50,328 bases of DNA from Opitutia bacterium (GCA_025360615.1 JANYBX010000324.1:1-50328); one strand, 5' to 3'; shown: positions 15,177 to 50,259, counted from the first letter of the stretch. The notes: generated from the letters alone by a model not told the origin. A program made the numbers and translations.

Positions 15177-16946
15177 CTACGGCTTTTTCCGCCGTTCCAC
15201 CAACGCCAGCAGCAAATCTCCCTTGGCGAGGCTGCCGAGCAATGTGCCATCGCGCGCCACCACCGGCAGCCGCTCCGCCTCAAAGTTCAGAAACCCACCG
15301 AGCGCGTCGCTCAACGAGGCGTCGGGCGCCACGCGCGGAAAATCCTCGCGCAAAATATCTTTCGCGATGACCAGCTCCGCGAGCCCGGCCTCGCCGAGGT
15401 AGGGCTTGATGTCGTGCAGCGAAACTGCCCCCAGAAAGCGCCCCTCCCCGTCGGTGACGTAGAGATTATTGACGCGCATGGAGAGAAACAGCTCGGCGAT
15501 CTCCGCGAACCGCGCGCCGGCCCGGAGCGTGGGCGGTTTACTCTTCATCAGCTCCGCCACGGAACCCACTTCGAATGCCAAGCCGCCCGGCGTCTCGGCG
15601 GCCTTGCGTTTCAACGCCTCGCTGTAGAGCGAGCGGTCCTCGAATCCCTTCGCCGTGTAGTAGGCCACCACGCTGCACAACATCAGCGGCAGGATGATGT
15701 CGTAGCTCAGCGTCATCTCAAAAAGCATGATCACCGCCATCACCGGCGCATGGCTCGCCGCCGAGAGAAACGCCCCCATCCCCACGAGCGCGAACGCCCC
15801 CGGGTTCGCCGCGCCCGCCGGCCAGATCGCATGCACGCCCGTGCCAAATAAAAATCCCGCGCTCGCCCCCATGAACAGCGAGGGCGTGAACACCCCGCCG
15901 GGCGCACCCGAGCCAAACGACGCCGCCGTCGCGAGCCACTTGCACGCAAAAATCACCGCCAGCGCCAGCCACGCGACATGGCCGTTGAGAATATCCACGA
16001 CCACCGAGTAGCCGTTGCCGCACACCTCGGGGACCTTGATCGCGAGAGCGCCCACGATGAGTCCGCCCAGCGTGAGCCGCGCGATCAACGGCAGTTTCGT
16101 CGCCACGAAAAAATTTTCCGCCGCCTTCAGCGAACGCAAAAACCACGGCGCCGCCACGCCCGCGATTAGGCCGAGGCCGATGTAGGGCAGCATTTCCCAC
16201 GCGGAGTTGAGCTTGAACGCCGGCACCTTGTAGAGCTGCGCCTCGCTCGTCAGTCCGCGCACCGTCAGCGCCGCCACGACCGCCGACACCGCGAGCGGCC
16301 CGAGGCTCTCCATCGCGATGGTGCCGAGAATAATTTCCGCCACGAAAAACGAACCCGCGATCGGCGCGTTGTAAGCCGAGGCGATGCCCGCCGCCGCGCC
16401 GCACGCCACCAACAGCCGCAACTGCGGCGGCGTAAACTGCCGCCACCGCCCGAGGAACGACGCGATCACCGCCGAGAGTTGCACCATCGGGCCTTCGCGC
16501 CCGATCGATCCGCCCGAGCCGATGGAGAACAACGCCGCCGCGCTCTTCACCAGGCTGGAACGAATCGGCACATGCCCCGAGCCGATCACGATCGCCTCCA
16601 TATAGTCCGTCGAACTTTGCCCGCGCGCGATGCGCCGGCCGAGCAGGAGCACGAATCCCGCGAGCAACCCACCCGCCGCGGGCAACGCGAGCACGCCCCA
16701 CCAAGGCAGTTGCCGCATCGACTCGACGACGCCCGCGCCTGAACCCGTCAGCACGTCATGCACGCCCTCCGCGAGGCCTTTGAAAATCAGCGAAACCAGC
16801 GCCCCCAATCCCCCCACCAAGGCCGCCCACAGGAGCGTAATCTGCCACTCCGTCGGCTGGAGTTTTTCCTGGATCCACACGCGCCACCGGAGCAGCCGCA
16901 GCAGCCGCTCCAGCAGAAGTTTCGCGGGATCCGTGACCGCCTTCAT
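15177..16946 (-). CDS. ClC-family chloride channel/transporter with two CBS domains
   Basis: The protein has 589 residues. The ClC membrane core covers about residues 35-440 with the selectivity motifs 'GSGHVP', 'GREGP' (gating Glu151) and 'GGVFTP'. Two CBS domains follow (about 455-580, '[24 protein letters not shown]' and '[25 protein letters not shown]'). At the site of the E. coli inner proton glutamate (E203) there is Ile205, next to the conserved Glu204, so proton coupling may be absent or use another route. The start codon overlaps the stop of the upstream EIIA gene in an ATGA, which implies translational coupling. The CBS pair may bind adenine nucleotides. Channel or antiporter cannot be decided from sequence. 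Confidence 0.88.
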
Positions 16947-17404
16947 CTCTTTTGCGCGCGCGCGAGCACCGCGCGAAACTCATCCTCCGTCGGGGCCGTG
17001 AGCAAGGCGGCGCGCGTCCCCGGATTTTTGAGCAGCCGCGAAAGCGCCGCCACGAGCTGGAGATATTCCGACACCGCCGCCTTGGGCGTGCCCACAAGAA
17101 ACACCAGCCGCACTCCCGGATGCTCCGAGTCGAACGCCACCGGCGCCGCCGTGCGCGCCACCGCGAGCACGATGCGGTCCACCGCCGGCGTGCGCGCATG
17201 AGGCAGCGCCACGTCGTCCGCGATGCACACCGAGGCCAGCGCGGCGCGATCGAGTAAATCCTGTAAAAACTGTTCCGCATTCTTCACGTCCGGCGTGGCC
17301 GACCGCAGTCGTTGATGAAGCGCGCGAATGGCCTCCTCGCCGCTGGCCACTTTTAGGTCGAGCACGAGGGCATCCGGCGAGGCGATAAGTTCAGGCAGCG
17401 ACAT
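16943..17404 (-). CDS. PTS EIIA type-2 (PtsN/fructose-like) protein
   Basis: I take the ATG at 17404 (MSLPELI), giving 153 residues; two in-frame ATGs at 17434 and 17428 would add up to ten residues. The whole protein is one EIIA-2 domain. The phosphorylated histidine is His69 in 'VCIADDVALPHARTP', and 'LVFLVGTPKAAVSEYLQLVAALSRLL' matches the family. No EIIB, EIIC, EI or HPr gene is nearby, so it looks like a regulatory EIIA rather than a sugar transporter subunit. The four-base overlap with the ClC gene suggests that it controls, or is made in ratio with, that transporter. The family call is firm; the regulatory link is inference. Confidence 0.85.
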   Translation of the reverse strand: MSLPELIASPDALVLDLKVASGEEAIRALHQRLRSATPDVKNAEQFLQDLLDRAALASVCIADDVALPHARTPAVDRIVLAVARTAAPVAFDSEHPGVRLVFLVGTPKAAVSEYLQLVAALSRLLKNPGTRAALLTAPTEDEFRAVLARAQKR

Positions 17405-17548
17405 GACTGAGGAAAAGTAGTTGGACATAAGCATGAAACAAGCCCGCGTTGGCGGACAGGCTCCCCATCGTCACAAACTGGCCGCGCATGTTCCGAGTTT
17501 TGCTCCGGAGCGGACCTTGCGTCCGGCCATGCGCTTCAAGCCTCGGGA

Positions 17549-20284
17549 TCAGTCCAGCGTGTAAGGCTGCTCCTGCTCTTGGTCTTGTTCCGCCTGCGCC
17601 GTCAGCGTCACGAGACTCTTCAGCGAGGAAAAATGCTGGCTTAGGTCGAAGTCGCCGCCGAGACCGCCGATCAGCTTGTCGAACAAATCCCGCTTCGACG
17701 CCTTCAGCGCCTGGATGCGTTCCTCGATCGTGCCGGCCGTCACCATGCGATAAACAAAAACCGTGTTCGTTTGTCCGATGCGGTGAACGCGATCCACCGC
17801 CTGCGCCTCGACCGCCGGATTCCACCACGGGTCGAGCAGGAAAACATAGTCCGCCGCGTGCAGCGTGATGCCCGTGCCCGCCGCCTTGAGTGAGACGAGC
17901 ATCGCCGCCGCGCCCGTCGCCGTCTGAAAACCTTGCACGGGCTTGAGCCGGTCGAGCGTCATGCCCGTCAGCTCGTAGCGCGGCAGATCTGGGAAATGCT
18001 GCTGCAGCGCCGTGCGCACGCGGTCGAGCAACATCACGAACTGCGAGAAAATCACCACCTTGTGCCCGCTGCCCACGACCTCCGCGAGTTTCTCGACCAG
18101 CAGGTTGATCTTGCCCGAGTCGGTCAGCGGCGACTTGAGCCACGGGAGCATGTCGGGATCGCAGCACGTCTGCCGCAGGCGCGTGAGTAGCGCGAGAAAG
18201 CCGAACGATTTTTCGCGCATCGCCGAGCCCACGTCGTCGCCGAGCCGCTCGAGCCCCTCGGTGCAGATGCGGGCGTATTCCGCGCGCTGCACATCGGTGA
18301 GCGGGCAGATGAGGTCGATTTCGACTTTTTGCGGCAGCTCGGTGGCGACTTCTTTTTTCGTGCGCCGCAGGAGAAAAGGCGCGAGCTGCGCCCGCAGCCG
18401 GGTGAGCGTGCCCTCGCGATTCGTGATGAGCGCGGACTCAAACGCCGCCCGCGAGCCGAGCAGCCCCGGCAGCAAAAATCTAAAAATACTCCAGAGGTCG
18501 AGCTGCCGGTTTTCGAGTGGCGTGCCGGTGAGCACGATGCGGTGGCGCGCCCGCACGGCGAAACACGTCTGCGTGATCTTCGCGTCCGGGTTTTTGATAA
18601 ACTGCCCTTCGTCGAGCACCGCGTAGCCGAAGTCCGCGCCATCGAGCATCGCGCGGTGTTTGCGGAGCTGCGTGTAGCTCGCGAGCCAGATGACCGGCGC
18701 CGGATGCGTCGTGAAATCGTGCCCGGTCTTCAACACCTCCACCGCCAGCGCGGGGAAAAATTTCGCGATTTCCTCGCGCCACACCGGCACCACGCTCGCA
18801 GGACACACGATCACGTTCGACTTCCCCGCGATGGGCCGGGTCGCCAGCAGCGAGAGCACTTGGAGCGTTTTGCCGAGACCCATCTCATCGGCGAGCAAGC
18901 CGTGACATCCCACTTCGCAGAGGTGGTGCATCCACTCCACGCCGCGCCGCTGGTAGGGCCGCAGCAGTTCCGGCAGCGCCGGCATGATCCCGGTCGGCGC
19001 GAGAACCCGCTGCCGCCACAGCTCCATTTCGGGCGAGAGCGTGAGCTTCAGCTTCGAGTCGTTGAACAGCGAAAACACCAGATAGGGCGAGAGCGCCCCG
19101 CCGGCCGCCGCGCCCGCGCCCTGCGTCTCCTCGACGTTTTTCTGCCACGCGCTATACGATTCCCAGCGGTCCGCCGGAAGCGCCACGATCCCGAGGTTCG
19201 GCAAAATCACCGGTTGGCCGCCGCGCCGCAGCAGCGTGTTCACCTCGCTGTCGGTGAGCAGCCGTTCGCCCGCCCGGAAAATCCACCGCAGGTTGAGCGC
19301 CGCGTGTTCACCGCCGTCGGTGCCGCCGGGGCCCGCGCCGTTCGCGCGTTCGGCCACGGCCTCGATCTCGATCGCACGCGTGCCTTTGACGAGATTGGCC
19401 GCCTTCTCGTCGAGCTCGATGCCGAACATCCGCCGCCACGCCGGCAGCGTGGTCTTCAGGAAATTCGGGATCTCCACGAGCGACTCCATCAGGTAGACGC
19501 CGTTGTCCTGATTATAGTGGAAGTGCGCCTTGCGCGCATAGGCCGCGAGGCCGATCAGCTTCGCGCGCTCGCCGGAAGAAATGTGGCCGTTGCCATTCGC
19601 GTGCGAGTCGGGCCCGAGCGCGGAGTGGCGCGTCTTGCGGTCCGCCTCCAGCCAAAATGCCTGGAACGCCAGCCCCGCCGTTTTCGTTTTGAACAACAAT
19701 AACAGCGGTCGCGACGGCCCGTTCACCCGCACCGGCGGAGTCGTGCCGCCGGAGGCTCCCGCCGCGCGCGCCAAACCATGCCCCACCGAATGCCCCGCAT
19801 GAGCCGACGGCGTGGTCGGCGGATGCGACCGCGACGCCGCCAGAAAATGGCCATTGGCCTGCGAGCCGTGATGGTTGCCATTCCCATGCGGATGGCCGCT
19901 TCCGTGGCCGTTGCCATTTCCCGTGGCGCGCGGCGAATCGTCGGGCAACGGCGAGATTTCGTCCGCCACCAGCTCCTCGATTTCATGCAGCCCGGCCACC
20001 GCCAGAGCGTGCGCCAGCTCCGTGTCCGTCGAGGAGGAACGCACCGAAAAGCCATCCGCCCCCCACTCGATCACGGCATACTCATCCTTCTTCTCGATCC
20101 GGCGATGCACGATCGCGTCGCGCTCCGTCAGCTCAAGTTCCCGCACCTGGCCGTCGCGGTAAATCTGCCGTCCTGCCTCCAATTGGCTAACAGTGAAGCG
20201 TCCCGCCCAATCGTTTTCGAGTTTACCAAACCAAAACTCGAGCGAGTGGGGTGTATAGACGCGCTTCGGACCGTGAGACTGCAT
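17549..20284 (-). CDS. SNF2-family DEAD/DEAH-box ATPase/helicase
   Basis: The ATG at 20284 gives 911 residues; an upstream GTG at 20314 would add ten. The N-terminal 440 residues are family-specific and contain a Gly/Asn/His-rich linker (about 121-150). The SNF2 motor follows with Walker A 'LLADEMGLGKT' (about 463-473), the DEAH-equivalent 'LDEGQFIKN', motif III 'VLTGTPLENRQLDLWS', and the second RecA lobe with 'VIFSQFVMLLDRV', 'LKAAGTGITLHAAD' and 'DRVHRIGQTN'. Bacterial SNF2 proteins translocate on duplex DNA and are linked to repair or RNA polymerase recycling. No SWIM zinc finger is visible. It is transcribed away from the glycosyltransferase gene at 20464, and the EIIA and ClC genes follow it on the same strand. 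Confidence 0.9.
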   Translation of the reverse strand: MQSHGPKRVYTPHSLEFWFGKLENDWAGRFTVSQLEAGRQIYRDGQVRELELTERDAIVHRRIEKKDEYAVIEWGADGFSVRSSSTDTELAHALAVAGLHEIEELVADEISPLPDDSPRATGNGNGHGSGHPHGNGNHHGSQANGHFLAASRSHPPTTPSAHAGHSVGHGLARAAGASGGTTPPVRVNGPSRPLLLLFKTKTAGLAFQAFWLEADRKTRHSALGPDSHANGNGHISSGERAKLIGLAAYARKAHFHYNQDNGVYLMESLVEIPNFLKTTLPAWRRMFGIELDEKAANLVKGTRAIEIEAVAERANGAGPGGTDGGEHAALNLRWIFRAGERLLTDSEVNTLLRRGGQPVILPNLGIVALPADRWESYSAWQKNVEETQGAGAAAGGALSPYLVFSLFNDSKLKLTLSPEMELWRQRVLAPTGIMPALPELLRPYQRRGVEWMHHLCEVGCHGLLADEMGLGKTLQVLSLLATRPIAGKSNVIVCPASVVPVWREEIAKFFPALAVEVLKTGHDFTTHPAPVIWLASYTQLRKHRAMLDGADFGYAVLDEGQFIKNPDAKITQTCFAVRARHRIVLTGTPLENRQLDLWSIFRFLLPGLLGSRAAFESALITNREGTLTRLRAQLAPFLLRRTKKEVATELPQKVEIDLICPLTDVQRAEYARICTEGLERLGDDVGSAMREKSFGFLALLTRLRQTCCDPDMLPWLKSPLTDSGKINLLVEKLAEVVGSGHKVVIFSQFVMLLDRVRTALQQHFPDLPRYELTGMTLDRLKPVQGFQTATGAAAMLVSLKAAGTGITLHAADYVFLLDPWWNPAVEAQAVDRVHRIGQTNTVFVYRMVTAGTIEERIQALKASKRDLFDKLIGGLGGDFDLSQHFSSLKSLVTLTAQAEQDQEQEQPYTLD

Positions 20285-20463
20285 TCGCGTAAAAGAGGCG
20301 ACCGTAGAAACCACCGGTCACAGCGCAACCACGAATTCCGTGAAAAATCCCCCCAGCGGGCCTTTGTCAGAATTGTAACACGCCCGCCACCTCAACGACA
20401 CAGAGCTGCGGTAGTTATTCACAACGCCTCATTCCTTCCTACGACACCGCCACCACGCATTTT

Positions 20464-21630
20464 GTGAAACTCGCCCTCGTCACCGAAACCTTCCCGCCGG
20501 AAATCAACGGCGTCGCGATGACGTTTGGCGTGATCGCCCGCGAACTCGGCCGGCGTGGCCATCAGGTCACCGTCTATCGCCCCCGCCGCCACGATCTCCC
20601 GGCCGCCGACGCTCATCCCGAATACCAGGTCGTCGCCCTGCCCGGTCTCCCGCTCCCCGGTTATCCCATGCTCCGTCTCGGCCTCCCGGCCGGCCGCACG
20701 CTGCGCCAGCGCTGGCGCGCGGATCGCCCCGATCTCGTCCACGTCGCCACGGAAGGTCCGCTCGGCGCCTCCGCCGTCACCGCCGCCCGCGCCCTCGGCC
20801 TCCCCGTCACCTCCAGCTTTCACACCAACTTCCACGCCTATACCCGCCACTACGGCGTCGGCCCGCTCCAACGCGTCGCGCTCGCGTGGCTCCGCCACGT
20901 TCACAACCGCACGCGCCGCACCTTCGCGCCGACCGGCGAGCTCTGCGCCGAACTCGCCCAGCTCGGCTTCCGCGATCTCGCCGTCCTCTCGCGCGGCGTT
21001 GACACCACCCAGTTCCGCCCCGCCCTCCGCTCCCTCCCCCTGCGAGCCGCGTGGGGCGCCGCCCCGACCGATCCCGTCGTGGTCCACGCCGGCCGCATGG
21101 CCGCCGAGAAAAACTATCCGCTCCTTCTCCGCGCCTTCTCTGCCATGCGCGCCGCCGAACCCCGCCTGCGCTGCGTCCTCGTCGGCGACGGCCCGCTCCG
21201 CGCCTCGCTCCAGCGCCAGTTTCCCGGGGGGATTTTTCCCGGCTTCATCCCCCGCGACGATCTCGCCCGCCACTACGCCTCGGCCGACATCTATATCCAC
21301 GCCAGCCTCACGGAAACGTTTGGCAACGTCCTCACCGAAGCCATGGCCAGCGGCCTCGCCGTTGCCGGCTTCGACTACGCCGCCGCGCGCCAATTCATCC
21401 GCACCGGCGAAAACGGCCTCAGCGTCCCCTGCGACCAACCCGAAAAACTCATCGCCGCGAGCGTCCACCTCGCCACCGATGCCGACCTCCGCATTCGCTT
21501 CCGCACCCTCGCCCGCCTCACGGTCGAGCCCCAGTGCTGGGAAACCGTTATCGCCGGTTTTGAATCCGATCTCGCCGCCATCGTCGCCGCCGCCCACCCC
21601 GCGCCGCGCCTGACTCCCGTCCTCGTTTAA
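20464..21630 (+). CDS. GT4 glycosyltransferase (glycolipid/mannosyltransferase-like)
   Basis: The GTG at 20464 starts the canonical N-terminus 'MKLALVTETFPPEINGVA', giving 388 residues in two Rossmann lobes (GT-B fold). Acceptor-lobe signals are 'HTNFHAYTRHYGVGPLQ'; donor-lobe signals are 'VVHAGRMAAEKNYPLLL', 'LVGDGPLR' and the E-x7-E motif in 'ETFGNVLTEAMASG'. The sequence resembles MgtA, SqdX and Agt-type enzymes that glycosylate diacylglycerol or related lipids from nucleotide sugars. It is the first gene of a run with a GT28 7 bases downstream, a diacylglycerol kinase and a PlcP-like phosphoesterase, so a lipid acceptor is likely. Donor and acceptor cannot be read from the sequence. Confidence 0.82.
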   Translation: MKLALVTETFPPEINGVAMTFGVIARELGRRGHQVTVYRPRRHDLPAADAHPEYQVVALPGLPLPGYPMLRLGLPAGRTLRQRWRADRPDLVHVATEGPLGASAVTAARALGLPVTSSFHTNFHAYTRHYGVGPLQRVALAWLRHVHNRTRRTFAPTGELCAELAQLGFRDLAVLSRGVDTTQFRPALRSLPLRAAWGAAPTDPVVVHAGRMAAEKNYPLLLRAFSAMRAAEPRLRCVLVGDGPLRASLQRQFPGGIFPGFIPRDDLARHYASADIYIHASLTETFGNVLTEAMASGLAVAGFDYAAARQFIRTGENGLSVPCDQPEKLIAASVHLATDADLRIRFRTLARLTVEPQCWETVIAGFESDLAAIVAAAHPAPRLTPVLV

Positions 21631-21637
21631 CTTATCC

Positions 21638-22810
21638 ATGCGCGCCCGCCTCCTCATCCTCACCGCCGGCTATGGCGAAGGCCACAACGCCGCCGCCCGC
21701 GCCCTCGCCGAAGCCTGCGATGCCGCGCACGGCCCCGGCACCGCCCGCGTCGTCGATCTTTTTGCCCTCGCCTCCCCGCGCGTGAACGTCGTCACCCGTC
21801 GCGCCTACCTCGCCACGATCAACGGCGCACCCCGTCTCTGGAGCCGCCTCTACGCGTGGATCGACCGCTCCAATATCGTCCCCCGCTGCCTCTGGCTGCT
21901 CGGCCGCGAACGCCGCCTCCTCGCCAAAATCATCGCCGACGAATCGCCCGTCGCGATCTGCAGCACCTATCCCGTTTACGCGTTCCTCCTCGCCCGCCTC
22001 GCGCACGAGGGCCGCAAACTCCCACCGCACTACAACGTCGTCACCGATTCCATCAGCATCAACTCCCTCTGGTGGCGCGCCGGCAGCGCCGGCTGGTTTC
22101 TTCCCAACGAAGATTCCGCCGAAGTCCTCCGCCGCGCCGGCGTCGAACCCGAGCGACTGCACGTCAGCGGTTTTCCCGTGCCCGCATTTTTCGGCGACAA
22201 CGCCGACCGCCTCACCCCACCCGACCTCTCTGCTCTGGAAAATGGAGGCGGGGTGCCCTCACCCCGCATTCTCTACATCATCAACTCCGGCACCCATCAC
22301 GCCGGCGAAACCGCCCGCCTCCTCCTCGAGGAAACCGCGTGGGAAATCACCATCGCCGTCGGCCGCGACGAGACCCTCCGCGCGCAACTCACCGCGCTCG
22401 CCGCCGGCCGCGCCCGCCCGGCTCAGATTCTCGGCTGGACCGACCAAATCCCGCATCTGCTCATGACGCACCACGCCGTCATCAGCAAAGCCGGCGGCGC
22501 TACCACCCAGGAAGCCATTGCCGCGCGCTGCCCGATGATCGTCAACCAAGTCGTCCCCGGCCAGGAAGAGGGCAACTACGAGCTCCTCCGCCGTCACCAC
22601 GCCGGCGCACTCGCCGAGACTCCCGCCGCCGTCATCGCGACGCTCCGCGCCGCCTTCGCCCAGCGCGGCGCCGGCTGGCACTCGTGGCGCACCGCTCTCG
22701 CCACCCTCGTCCGCAATGACGCCGCGAAAGTCATCGCCGCCCACGTCCTCGCCGCTTCCTCCGATCCCCTTCTCGCCCTCGACCCCGCGCCCGCGATCTC
22801 CCTCCGATGA
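21638..22810 (+). CDS. MGDG synthase-like GT28 glycosyltransferase
   Basis: The protein has 390 residues. It opens with 'ILTAGYGEGHNAAARAL', the glycine/histidine acceptor loop of the MGDG_synth family. 'VVTDSISINSLWW' and 'HVSGFPV' follow, then the GT28 C-terminal donor half with 'PRILYIINSG', 'GWTDQIPHLLMTHHAVISKAGG', 'TTQEAIAARCPMIVNQVVPGQEEGN'. Related enzymes move galactose or glucose from a UDP-sugar onto diacylglycerol at the inner membrane. The gene starts 7 bases after the GT4 gene and its stop overlaps the diacylglycerol kinase start (ATGA), so the three genes form a tight operon. A perfect hairpin at 22248-22267 encodes an apparent extra loop. MurG is excluded by the N-terminal family; sugar and acceptor remain inference. 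Confidence 0.82.
   Translation: MRARLLILTAGYGEGHNAAARALAEACDAAHGPGTARVVDLFALASPRVNVVTRRAYLATINGAPRLWSRLYAWIDRSNIVPRCLWLLGRERRLLAKIIADESPVAICSTYPVYAFLLARLAHEGRKLPPHYNVVTDSISINSLWWRAGSAGWFLPNEDSAEVLRRAGVEPERLHVSGFPVPAFFGDNADRLTPPDLSALENGGGVPSPRILYIINSGTHHAGETARLLLEETAWEITIAVGRDETLRAQLTALAAGRARPAQILGWTDQIPHLLMTHHAVISKAGGATTQEAIAARCPMIVNQVVPGQEEGNYELLRRHHAGALAETPAAVIATLRAAFAQRGAGWHSWRTALATLVRNDAAKVIAAHVLAASSDPLLALDPAPAISLR
22248..22267. repeat. In-frame perfect hairpin inside the GT28 gene
   Basis: GCGGGGTG, a CCCT loop and CACCCCGC form an 8-bp perfect stem within the coding sequence. The encoded stretch 'ENGGGVPSP' sits just before the conserved 'RILYIINSG', where relatives would be expected to be shorter. 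It looks like a small REP-type insertion kept in frame. Confidence 0.5.
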
Positions 22811-23751
22811 AAACCCGTTTCATCTTCAATCCCCGCTCCGGCCGGCACGCGCGCAACGCCCGCCTGCTTCCTCTCCTCCGCGATTTCATCAGCGCCCGCG
22901 CCCTCGATGCCGATCTCGTCGCCACGGAAGGCCCCGGCCACGCCACCGAACTCGCCCGCGACGCCGTCCACCAAGGCTGCCTCCGCGTCGTCGCCGTCGG
23001 TGGTGATGGCACGATGAACGAGGTCGCCCAAGCCCTCCTGCACACGCCCGCCGCGCTCGCCCTCGTCCCCTGCGGTTCCGGCAACGGCCTCGCCCTCCAC
23101 CTCGGCCTGCCCCTCGCCCCGCTCGCCGCCCTCGAACTCGTCGCCGCCATCGGTGGCCGTGTGGCTGCCGTCGATACGGGCTCGGTTAACGGCAAGCCCT
23201 TCTTCAACGCCATGGGCCTCGGCCTCGATGCCGAGGTCAGCCGCCGCTTCAACCACCTCACGCGCCGCGGCCTCCCCGCCTATGCGCGCACCGCGTTTTC
23301 CGCCTTCGTTCAGCGCAAAAGCGAGCACTGCACGATCACCGCCGGCGGTCGCCGCGAGAAAATCGAGGCCATGCTCATCGCCATCGCCAACTCCGACCAA
23401 TACGGCAACCGCGCCTTCATCGCCCCCGGCGCGCGCGTCGACGACGGCCAGCTCGATCTCGTCGCCATCCGCCCCGTCGGCCTCCTCGGCGCCGCCATCC
23501 TCGGCGCGCATCTCTTCCTCGGTTCCATCGACCGCAGCCCCCACGTCCGCCGCCTGCGCGGCTCGCGTTTCATCATCGAGCGCCCCGCCCCCGGCCTGGT
23601 CCATACTGATGGCGAGACGCATCCCACCAGCAGCACCGTCGAAGTCCTCGTCCATCCCCGCAGCCTCCGCGTCGTCATCCCCGCCACGACCCGCGCCATC
23701 GCCCCCGCCGACGACCTCGCCCCCGCCGGCTTCGCCCTCCAGCTGCCATGA
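22807..23751 (+). CDS. Diacylglycerol kinase-family lipid kinase (YegS/DagK type)
   Basis: The 314-residue protein carries 'MKTRFIFNPRSG' at the N-terminus, the nucleotide-binding 'VVAVGGDGTMNEV' (residues 62-73) and 'LVPCGSGNGLA'. The C-terminal beta-sandwich includes 'FFNAMGLGLDAEVSRRF' and 'SDQYGNRAFIAPGARVDDGQLDLV'. This set defines the DAGK catalytic family. Members phosphorylate diacylglycerol, and some use sphingosine-like or other lipids. Its start overlaps the GT28 stop by four bases, so the two are translationally coupled. In this setting it could return excess diacylglycerol to phosphatidic acid, which CdsA uses. Confidence 0.88.
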   Translation: MKTRFIFNPRSGRHARNARLLPLLRDFISARALDADLVATEGPGHATELARDAVHQGCLRVVAVGGDGTMNEVAQALLHTPAALALVPCGSGNGLALHLGLPLAPLAALELVAAIGGRVAAVDTGSVNGKPFFNAMGLGLDAEVSRRFNHLTRRGLPAYARTAFSAFVQRKSEHCTITAGGRREKIEAMLIAIANSDQYGNRAFIAPGARVDDGQLDLVAIRPVGLLGAAILGAHLFLGSIDRSPHVRRLRGSRFIIERPAPGLVHTDGETHPTSSTVEVLVHPRSLRVVIPATTRAIAPADDLAPAGFALQLP

Positions 23752-23792
23752 TCCCGTCCTCCCTCTCTCTCCCCTGCACGACCAACGCCGTT

Positions 23793-23856
23793 TGTAATAT
23801 AATACGTTACAACTTTCCGATGGGACAAACCGTCAAATGTAACGTATTATATGACA
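23793..23856. promoter_or_regulatory. AT-rich double palindrome with a TATAAT hexamer on each strand
   Basis: Two 19-bp arms, 23793-23811 and 23838-23856, are inverted copies of each other with 18 of 19 positions matching and a 26-base spacer. The left arm is itself a palindrome of the form TGTAA-N9-TTACA; the right arm reads TGTAA-N9-TGACA. Each arm contains a perfect TATAAT, at 23798-23803 on the plus strand and 23847-23852 on the minus strand. I see no good -35 hexamer at 17 bases and no T-run after it. It sits in the 202-base gap in front of the PlcP-like gene and stands out from the GC-rich surroundings. Most likely it is a dimeric repressor or activator site overlapping the promoter; a small mobile inverted repeat is the alternative. 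Confidence 0.6.
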
Positions 23857-23953
23857 TGATGAGTCGGCCGGCTAGAGCGGCCTCGACCGGATTTCGGGCT
23901 GGGTTTCCGTCCTGCGCGACGCCTGCGTTTCCGCCTTCGGCTTCTTTTCTCCC

Positions 23954-24772
23954 GTGAAAAAACTTCGCGTCCGCACCGTGATCCTCTCCGACGTCCACCT
24001 CGGCACGGCCGAGAGTAAGGCGATCGAGGTGAATCATTTTCTGCGGAACGTCCGCTGCGAAAAACTCATCCTCAACGGCGACATCATCGACGGCTGGCAG
24101 CTCCAGCGCGGCGGCAACTGGACGAAGGCCCACACCCGCTTCATCCGCATCGTCCTCAAAAAACTGGAGAAGCGCGACACCCAGGTCGTTTACCTCCGCG
24201 GCAACCACGACGACATCCTCACCCAGTTTCTCCCGCTCGATTTCGAAAATCTCACCATCGTCGAGGATCACATCCACGAGACCGCCCACGGCCGCTACCT
24301 CGTGCTGCATGGCGACGTGTTCGACACCGTCACGAAAAATTTCGTCTGGCTCGCCCACCTTGGCGACTGGGGCTACCGCGCGCTCCTGAAACTCAATCGT
24401 CTCTACAACGCGTGGCGTGCCTGGCGCGGCCTCGAATACTGGTCGCTCAGCAAGGCGATCAAGGCCCGCGTCAAATCCGCCGTCAGCCACGTCTCCAACT
24501 TCGAGGAGCACATCTCGGAACTCGCCGAATCACGCGGCTGCATCGGCGTCATGTGCGGCCACATCCACACTCCCGCCGACCGGCAGATCGGCAAAATTCA
24601 CTACCTAAATTCTGGCGACTGGGTCGAGTCGCTCACCGCCGTGGTCGAGCATTGGGACGGACGGCTCGAACTCCTCAATTTCTCCGAGTTCATTCGCGAT
24701 TTTCCGCTGCCCGCCGAGGAGCCCGCGACGGAAGAACCCGTCGAAACTGAGTTCACCGCCACGCCGGCTTGA
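23954..24772 (+). CDS. PlcP-like calcineurin-fold metallophosphoesterase (often annotated as UDP-2,3-diacylglucosamine diphosphatase)
   Basis: A GTG start gives 272 residues. Metal ligands are visible as 'SDVHLG' (D13, H15), 'NGDIIDGW' (D43), 'GNHDD' (N84, H85), 'LVLHGDVFD' (H119) and 'CGHIHTP' (H203, H205). Family markers are 'LGDWGYRALL', 'YWSLSKAIKARVKSAV' and 'YLNSGDWVESLTAVVEH'. True LpxH has 'GNRD' at the H85 position, so this is not LpxH. It matches the branch that contains PlcP, the Sinorhizobium phospholipase C that releases diacylglycerol from phospholipids under phosphate limitation. The Glu/Pro-rich tail (about 254-272) looks disordered. It follows two glycosyltransferases and a lipid kinase and has its own upstream palindromes. 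The biochemical role is inferred from family and context. Confidence 0.75.
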   Translation: MKKLRVRTVILSDVHLGTAESKAIEVNHFLRNVRCEKLILNGDIIDGWQLQRGGNWTKAHTRFIRIVLKKLEKRDTQVVYLRGNHDDILTQFLPLDFENLTIVEDHIHETAHGRYLVLHGDVFDTVTKNFVWLAHLGDWGYRALLKLNRLYNAWRAWRGLEYWSLSKAIKARVKSAVSHVSNFEEHISELAESRGCIGVMCGHIHTPADRQIGKIHYLNSGDWVESLTAVVEHWDGRLELLNFSEFIRDFPLPAEEPATEEPVETEFTATPA

Positions 24773-49802: not shown

Positions 49803-50259
49803 GATTTTTTCATTTTATTTTCGCGCGGACGAAAATTTTGCGAGCCCACCCGCCCTCCGCCACTGCGTTTCGTGTATCGCAAAATCCACTCGCCGTCACG
49901 CCGTTGTCACCCCGCCGTAACCTCGCCCACGGCTTGCCAAGCCACTTCCGCCCCTACGTAAGTCCACGCATTATACGCCCCGCGCCCCCTCTTTTTTCGC
50001 GCCTGAACGCGGCCCGCGCTGGCAACGAAAAAAGCGAAAAAGTTATGCCCACAATCGATGTGAGTAACTTGGCAAAAACTTCGCCTTGTCATGCAATTTT
50101 GCTTCGCAGTTATTGCGCCCTTCGTTCGTTGTCTGCGTCCGTCCCTGAGTTCTTTCCTACTTCGTTTTCGCTCCAGCCCGCCAGTCGCCATCCGGTAGCC
50201 CCAGCTACATCCTGTTCATCAACATTTTATATTAGCTTCTCTTACCCCGCCAAAACCTG
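49803..50259. other. Gene-free, comparatively AT-rich stretch after ispG
   Basis: No convincing gene lies here; short open frames lack family signal. It contains a terminator-like stem near its start. It also has an imperfect palindrome at 50040-50070 (AAGTTA/TAACTT outside, CACA/TGTG inside), a 5-bp hairpin GTAGC-CCCA-GCTAC at 50195-50208 and a TATATT hexamer at 50228-50233 without a clear -35. It may be promoter and leader for the partial gene at 50260. Confidence 0.5.
49817..49840 (+). terminator. Possible weak terminator of the ispG operon
   Basis: ATTTTCG (49817-49823), a 6-base loop and CGAAAAT (49830-49836) make a 7-bp stem followed by TTTG, 14 bases after the ispG stop. The stem is AT-rich, so it would be a modest terminator. 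Confidence 0.4.

Follow-up and report, generated by a model that had tools for sequence, protein, structure and literature searches.

The closest described relative of the locus reported here is the PlcP-Agt1/Agt2 system of Pseudomonas aeruginosa (PA3219, PA3218, and PA0842; PMC8528852). There, plcP stands beside agt1 but apart from agt2, both Agt proteins are GT4-like glycosyltransferases, and the described pathway has neither a GT28 glycosyltransferase nor a lipid kinase. The plcP-agt operons of SAR11 and Roseobacter (PMC4796936, PMC8231724) respond to phosphorus stress and carry the glycosyltransferase downstream of plcP, again with no GT28 or kinase described alongside. In Bacillus, the GT28 enzyme UgtP and the kinase DgkB take part in glycolipid synthesis and diacylglycerol (DAG) recycling, with no PlcP and no Pho box. 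The DAG of this system derives from lipoteichoic acid synthesis. Finally, the LpxH2 family was described as metallophosphoesterases of undefined function, the P. aeruginosa member not being a lipid A enzyme (PMC3087551). We analyzed a contig of 50,328 nucleotides from an Opitutia bacterium (GCA_025360615.1 JANYBX010000324.1:1-50328; hereafter, the window), in which four genes within 20464-24772 encode, in this order, a GT4, a GT28, a lipid kinase, and a metallophosphoesterase. These genes quite probably form a PhoB-controlled operon of the PlcP-Agt type that would exchange phospholipids for glycolipids. This reading draws on the gene order and its conservation, the family placement of the esterase and of the GT4, a Pho-box-like element, linkage to pst-phoBR genes, and a gene fusion in Akkermansia.

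The window belongs to an assembly of 557 contigs and 4.58 Mb (G000), and its closest named relatives are Opitutaceae and Opitutus metagenome-assembled genomes. In line with the original prediction, made from the window sequence before this analysis, the four genes are adjacent and on the same (+) strand, and both the open reading frames (ORFs) and the Pfam domains above gathering score agree with the families that it named. The first gene (20464..21630, 388 amino acids) encodes an Agt2-like GT4 with Glyco_transf_4 and Glycos_transf_1 domains, a predicted UDP-sugar:diacylglycerol glycosyltransferase. After a gap of 7 bp comes a GT28 of the monogalactosyldiacylglycerol (MGDG) synthase/UgtP type (21638..22810, 390 amino acids, MGDG_synth), a predicted and possibly processive hexosyl-DAG synthase, whose gene overlaps by 4 bp that of a kinase predicted to act on DAG or a related lipid (22807..23751, 314 amino acids, DAGK_cat and YegS_C). 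The last gene, 202 bp further downstream (23954..24772, 272 amino acids, Metallophos), encodes an esterase of the PlcP/LpxH2 family, a predicted intracellular phospholipase C releasing DAG.

The window thus shares with P. aeruginosa a PlcP-family esterase, a GT4 of the Agt2 group and, by prediction, a Pho box and two DAG glycosyltransferases, but here the Agt2-like GT4 precedes the GT28, the kinase, and plcP. With SAR11 and Roseobacter it has in common a PlcP adjoining a GT4 lipid glycosyltransferase and a phosphorus-stress response, the latter predicted. The likeness to Bacillus lies in the MGDG_synth-type GT28 and in a DAGK_cat kinase that shares its fold with DgkB, although the window proteins stay under the equivalog cut-offs. 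The esterase belongs to the same metallophosphoesterase family as LpxH2. We did not find the combination of GT4, GT28, kinase, and PlcP in the literature searched, so that the claim of novelty in Verrucomicrobiota stands for the composition; it does not stand for PlcP, a homologue of which was reported in 2015 in a verrucomicrobium single-cell genome (PMC4796936). Hence, the locus is a variant of the known PlcP-Agt pathway and not a new kind of pathway.

The order GT4-GT28-kinase-esterase is kept in 15 of the 35 untruncated loci of relatives and in 13 of the 18 untruncated loci of named Opitutaceae, two sets that overlap in part. Such recurrence exceeds chance. Of 57 relatives, 41 have the esterase, and so do 41 of the 145 genomes surveyed throughout the phylum; beyond Opitutaceae the usual core is a GT4 followed by the esterase. 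The original prediction had named two sequence outcomes that would speak against it, genes scattered among relatives and an esterase grouping with LpxH; we observed neither.

The esterase carries the five metallophosphoesterase blocks SDVHLG, NGDIID, GNHDD, HGDVFD, and CGHIH, as well as a GDWVES signature, with GNHDD in place of the GNRD of LpxH. It is 48% identical to the PlcP of P. aeruginosa (L082) and 40% identical to that of Sinorhizobium meliloti (L081), both of them characterised and among its nearest annotated homologues. The gene of the former adjoins glycosyltransferase and adenylate cyclase genes, which is the layout of PA3219-PA3218-PA3217, the last of these being presumably cyaB. 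The latter adjoins genes for LuxR and an acyl-homoserine lactone synthase, and we take it to be SMc00171 from its sinR/sinI neighbours; its record bears the label pSymB yet has the size of a chromosome. The two proteins are 46.6% identical, against a published value of 46% (PMC8528852), and have the lengths given for LpxH2 in these species (270 and 281 amino acids, respectively; PMC3087551). The tree separates the eight LpxH sequences, without exception, from a PlcP side (branch support 100/99); the window esterase falls on the latter, as anticipated from its motif.

This placement bears on the alternative that the esterase is an LpxH-type UDP-2,3-diacylglucosamine hydrolase of lipid A synthesis. 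Its closest annotated homologues are indeed labelled UDP-2,3-diacylglucosamine diphosphatase, and its fold points the same way: a search of the PDB with the single sequence gave no match, a profile search gave LpxH as the sole match, and LpxH is also the best match (template modelling score ~0.5) of the AlphaFold model, which has a mean predicted local distance difference test of 81.5 and is less reliable over some of its helices. Since no PlcP structure is among the matches, the model does not discriminate function. On the other side, the esterase scores only 18.2 bits against TIGR01854 (LpxH; cut-off 190.35), the same genome encodes LpxI (G000:C330), as do 50 of 57 relatives, and LpxH over cut-off was found in none of the relatives searched. 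A role in lipid A synthesis is therefore unlikely given the tree, the presence of LpxI, and the lack of LpxH over cut-off; moreover, P. aeruginosa LpxH2 cannot complement the loss of lpxH in Escherichia coli (PMC3087551). Taken with the GNHDD motif, we consider the LpxH alternative extremely improbable. If the PlcP reading is true, the PlcP-type proteins in question are misannotated as LpxH. Public records such as L082 and L084 name PlcP-family proteins UDP-2,3-diacylglucosamine diphosphatase (LpxH). In Parabacteroides (L084, 4977-6898), a PlcP-like esterase is followed by a different, MJ1255-type glycosyltransferase, and in Pannonibacter (L090, 3869-5910) a distant esterase is followed by an HpnI-like one; the esterase may have been paired with glycosyltransferases of several families.

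The best plasmid match of the GT4 is a P. aeruginosa gene, with 46.8% identity over 95% of its length, that comes after cerN, plcH, and plcR. As these are PA0845, PA0844, and PA0843 (PMC5150637), the match is PA0842, that is, Agt2, which was shown to convert DAG to glucuronic acid-DAG when phosphate is limiting (PMC8528852). Agt2 falls inside the Opitutales GT4 group (99/98), together with an Acinetobacter glycosyltransferase, and the Agt1 type stands apart (100/100). The assignment to the Agt1 type was rejected, identity to Agt1 being only 34%. The grouping with a proven DAG glycosyltransferase is consistent with the glycosylation of DAG originally proposed for this protein. Its product is most likely glucuronosyl-DAG, a prediction from tree placement only; a related GT4 accepts several sugars (PMC8231724).

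Rather than DAG, the GT4 could glycosylate a phospholipid such as phosphatidylglycerol (PG), as GpgS does in making N-acetylglucosaminyl-PG (GlcNAc-PG), and the esterase could use another lipid, whether phosphatidic acid, a lipid-linked pyrophosphate, or a glycosylated phospholipid. The top NCBIfam match of the GT4 is in fact the GlcNAc-PG synthase model NF053787, and the clade of the esterase, described below, holds no assayed member. However, the score of 137 bits is far from the cut-off of 480, and Agt2, for which DAG is the proven substrate and with which the GT4 groups, scores alike (135 bits). The domains detected in or beside the cluster include no deacetylase or flippase of gpgSDF. We thus rejected the GpgS pathway, and regard the alternative as a whole as very improbable.

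The GT4 and the esterase are found as one protein in Akkermansia. In nine genomes of g55, a genus from the class of the window, the esterase lies in a frame of 649-746 amino acids, and in the five examined (L230, L231, L232, L233, and L236) it shares one frame with the GT4, with no intervening stop, in an ORF of 637-678 amino acids (for example, 2118-4154 of L231, G161:C1:1676500-1683500). In four of these five genomes the fused GT4 is 42-44% identical to Agt2. The genus includes Akkermansia muciniphila: genome G161 encodes a protein matching PDB 7sci without mismatch, and also 7yx8, an entry that belongs to a paper on AM0627 of this species (PMC9325726). The fused A. muciniphila gene sits upstream of a dnaK-like gene. 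The fusion argues that the two enzymes would act in successive steps, release of DAG and then its use. We found no description of it in the literature searched, nor anything on point on DAG glycolipids in Akkermansia.

The other two proteins could extend this pathway. The GT28 scores 55.6 bits against Pfam MGDG_synth (gathering 25; E 9e-15) and 150.6 bits, under the cut-off of 500, against the NCBIfam model of diglucosyl-DAG synthase (PRK13609), and it matches the solved structures PDB 9wde and 4wyi. The kinase passes TIGR00147 (124.5 bits for a cut-off of 118.65), has a GGDGT motif, and matches in the PDB diacylglycerol kinases, DgkB, and YegS. It is a possible return path from DAG to phosphatidic acid; YegS-type kinases have varied substrates. 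A literature search on PlcP with a diacylglycerol kinase gave nothing pertinent.

The link to phosphate starvation made in the original prediction gains support from Pho-box-like sites at the GT4 and pst promoters. Since CTGTCAY, the Pho consensus of E. coli, proved too generic, we dropped it and built a lineage matrix solely from four pst promoters (G025, G029, G031, and G035). In Opitutaceae, the porin-pstS operon shows tandem 7-mers with an 11-bp period 5' of its first gene; the pst operon of the window's own genome has the box TTGTCAC-AAGG-CCGCCAC-ACGT-TCGTAAC (L194:2934-2962). Each of the 14 genomes tested, including ten outside the training set, has a matrix site at its pst locus. In the window, the site at 20373..20401 (+ strand; TTGTAAC-ACGC-CCGCCAC-CTCA-ACGACAC), three 7-mers with the same period, ends 63 bp 5' of the GT4 start and scores 18.4 bits, a score that none of 500 dinucleotide shuffles reached. 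Over 29 family loci (909,874 positions), 35 sites score at least 15 bits, and 17 of these, from 15 loci, are GT4 promoters; in the window and 14 relatives the sites stand 24-81 bp 5' of the gene. The cluster is also linked to pst: in G018, 0.4 kb separate it from the first gene of the operon, and the distance to pst is 7 kb in G035, about 10-11 kb in G027, G015, and G031, and 13 kb in G029. In G018, the four genes, the pst operon, and the best PhoB- and PhoR-like genes, both under the curated cut-off, follow one another on the same contig.

The same chemistry could be carried out by a constitutive operon with no response to phosphate, the box being incidental or serving the SNF2-type gene, which runs in the opposite direction from the same intergenic region. 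The fused Akkermansia version, which lacks a Pho box, fits such an operon. Nevertheless, the distance between box and GT4 is near-constant even in loci with no visible SNF2-type gene upstream (L044, L046, L047, and L050), the single esterases of L054 and L056 carry a matrix site of their own just upstream, and the cluster is linked to pst. We hence judge constitutive expression unlikely.

Several observations weigh against a phosphate-controlled exchange operon. The generic E. coli consensus is weak in the window, where two repeats have p 0.107 and three have p 0.020. The Verrucomicrobiota esterases form with one from Parabacteroides a clade of their own (100/99) beside the proteobacterial PlcP, within the PlcP side, and we found no assayed member in this clade of Verrucomicrobiota and Bacteroidota. 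The GT28 is absent from the cluster in L045, L051, and L052, and the kinase in L041, L048, and L049, where GT4, GT28, and esterase remain. The kinase is thus dispensable in the cluster, which leaves the complete cycle proposed for it unproven. Because no Pho box of the Opitutaceae type was found 5' of the fused Akkermansia gene, control by phosphate may be confined to Opitutales. The literature searched gave no data on Opitutaceae glycolipids or other lipids.

For the PhoB-controlled exchange operon, we infer the following scheme, in which all enzymatic activities, the sugars, the binding of PhoB, and the role of the kinase are predictions. Under phosphate shortage, PhoB would occupy the Pho box 5' of the GT4, and the PlcP-type esterase would cleave phospholipids into DAG plus a phospho-alcohol. 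From DAG, the Agt2-like GT4 would form an acidic glycolipid, which would replace phosphatidylglycerol, and the GT28 would form a neutral hexosyl-DAG replacing phosphatidylethanolamine. The kinase might re-phosphorylate surplus DAG to phosphatidic acid, balancing the DAG pool. More tentatively, Verrucomicrobiota may own a version of PlcP-Agt that is an operon in Opitutales and a bifunctional protein in Akkermansia, to which Opitutaceae add GT28 and kinase, such that one Pho-controlled operon apportions the whole of the DAG among acidic glycolipid, neutral glycolipid, and phosphatidic acid; we find this broader view possible rather than probable. If the exchange is as proposed, phosphate-driven lipid replacement, known mainly from Proteobacteria, extends to another phylum, in which its control also has support from sequence. 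The A. muciniphila fusion would make the pathway testable by one gene in a gut bacterium that has been widely studied, and it bears on the lipids shown to the host.

Some features of the window lie outside this scheme. The gap between kinase and esterase holds an AT-rich inverted repeat (arms at about 23795-23811 and 23838-23854). It looks like an inserted repeat, since its 17-mer arm TAATATAATACGTTACA has 39 copies with at most 2 mismatches in the same GC-rich genome, and these often lie two close together; a miniature inverted-repeat transposable element (MITE) or a repetitive extragenic palindromic (REP)-like element is possible. A very strong Pho-box-like site (30.1 bits) was found at 49893-49921, 3' of the gene for GcpE (ispG) and close to the end of the contig, and the gene that it serves probably lies off the contig. 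Finally, genes for a CLC channel, a phosphotransferase system (PTS) EIIA protein, and the SNF2-type helicase adjoin the cluster divergently (15177-20314); this block is syntenic across most of the genus, and separates the cluster from the pst operon in G027 and G029.

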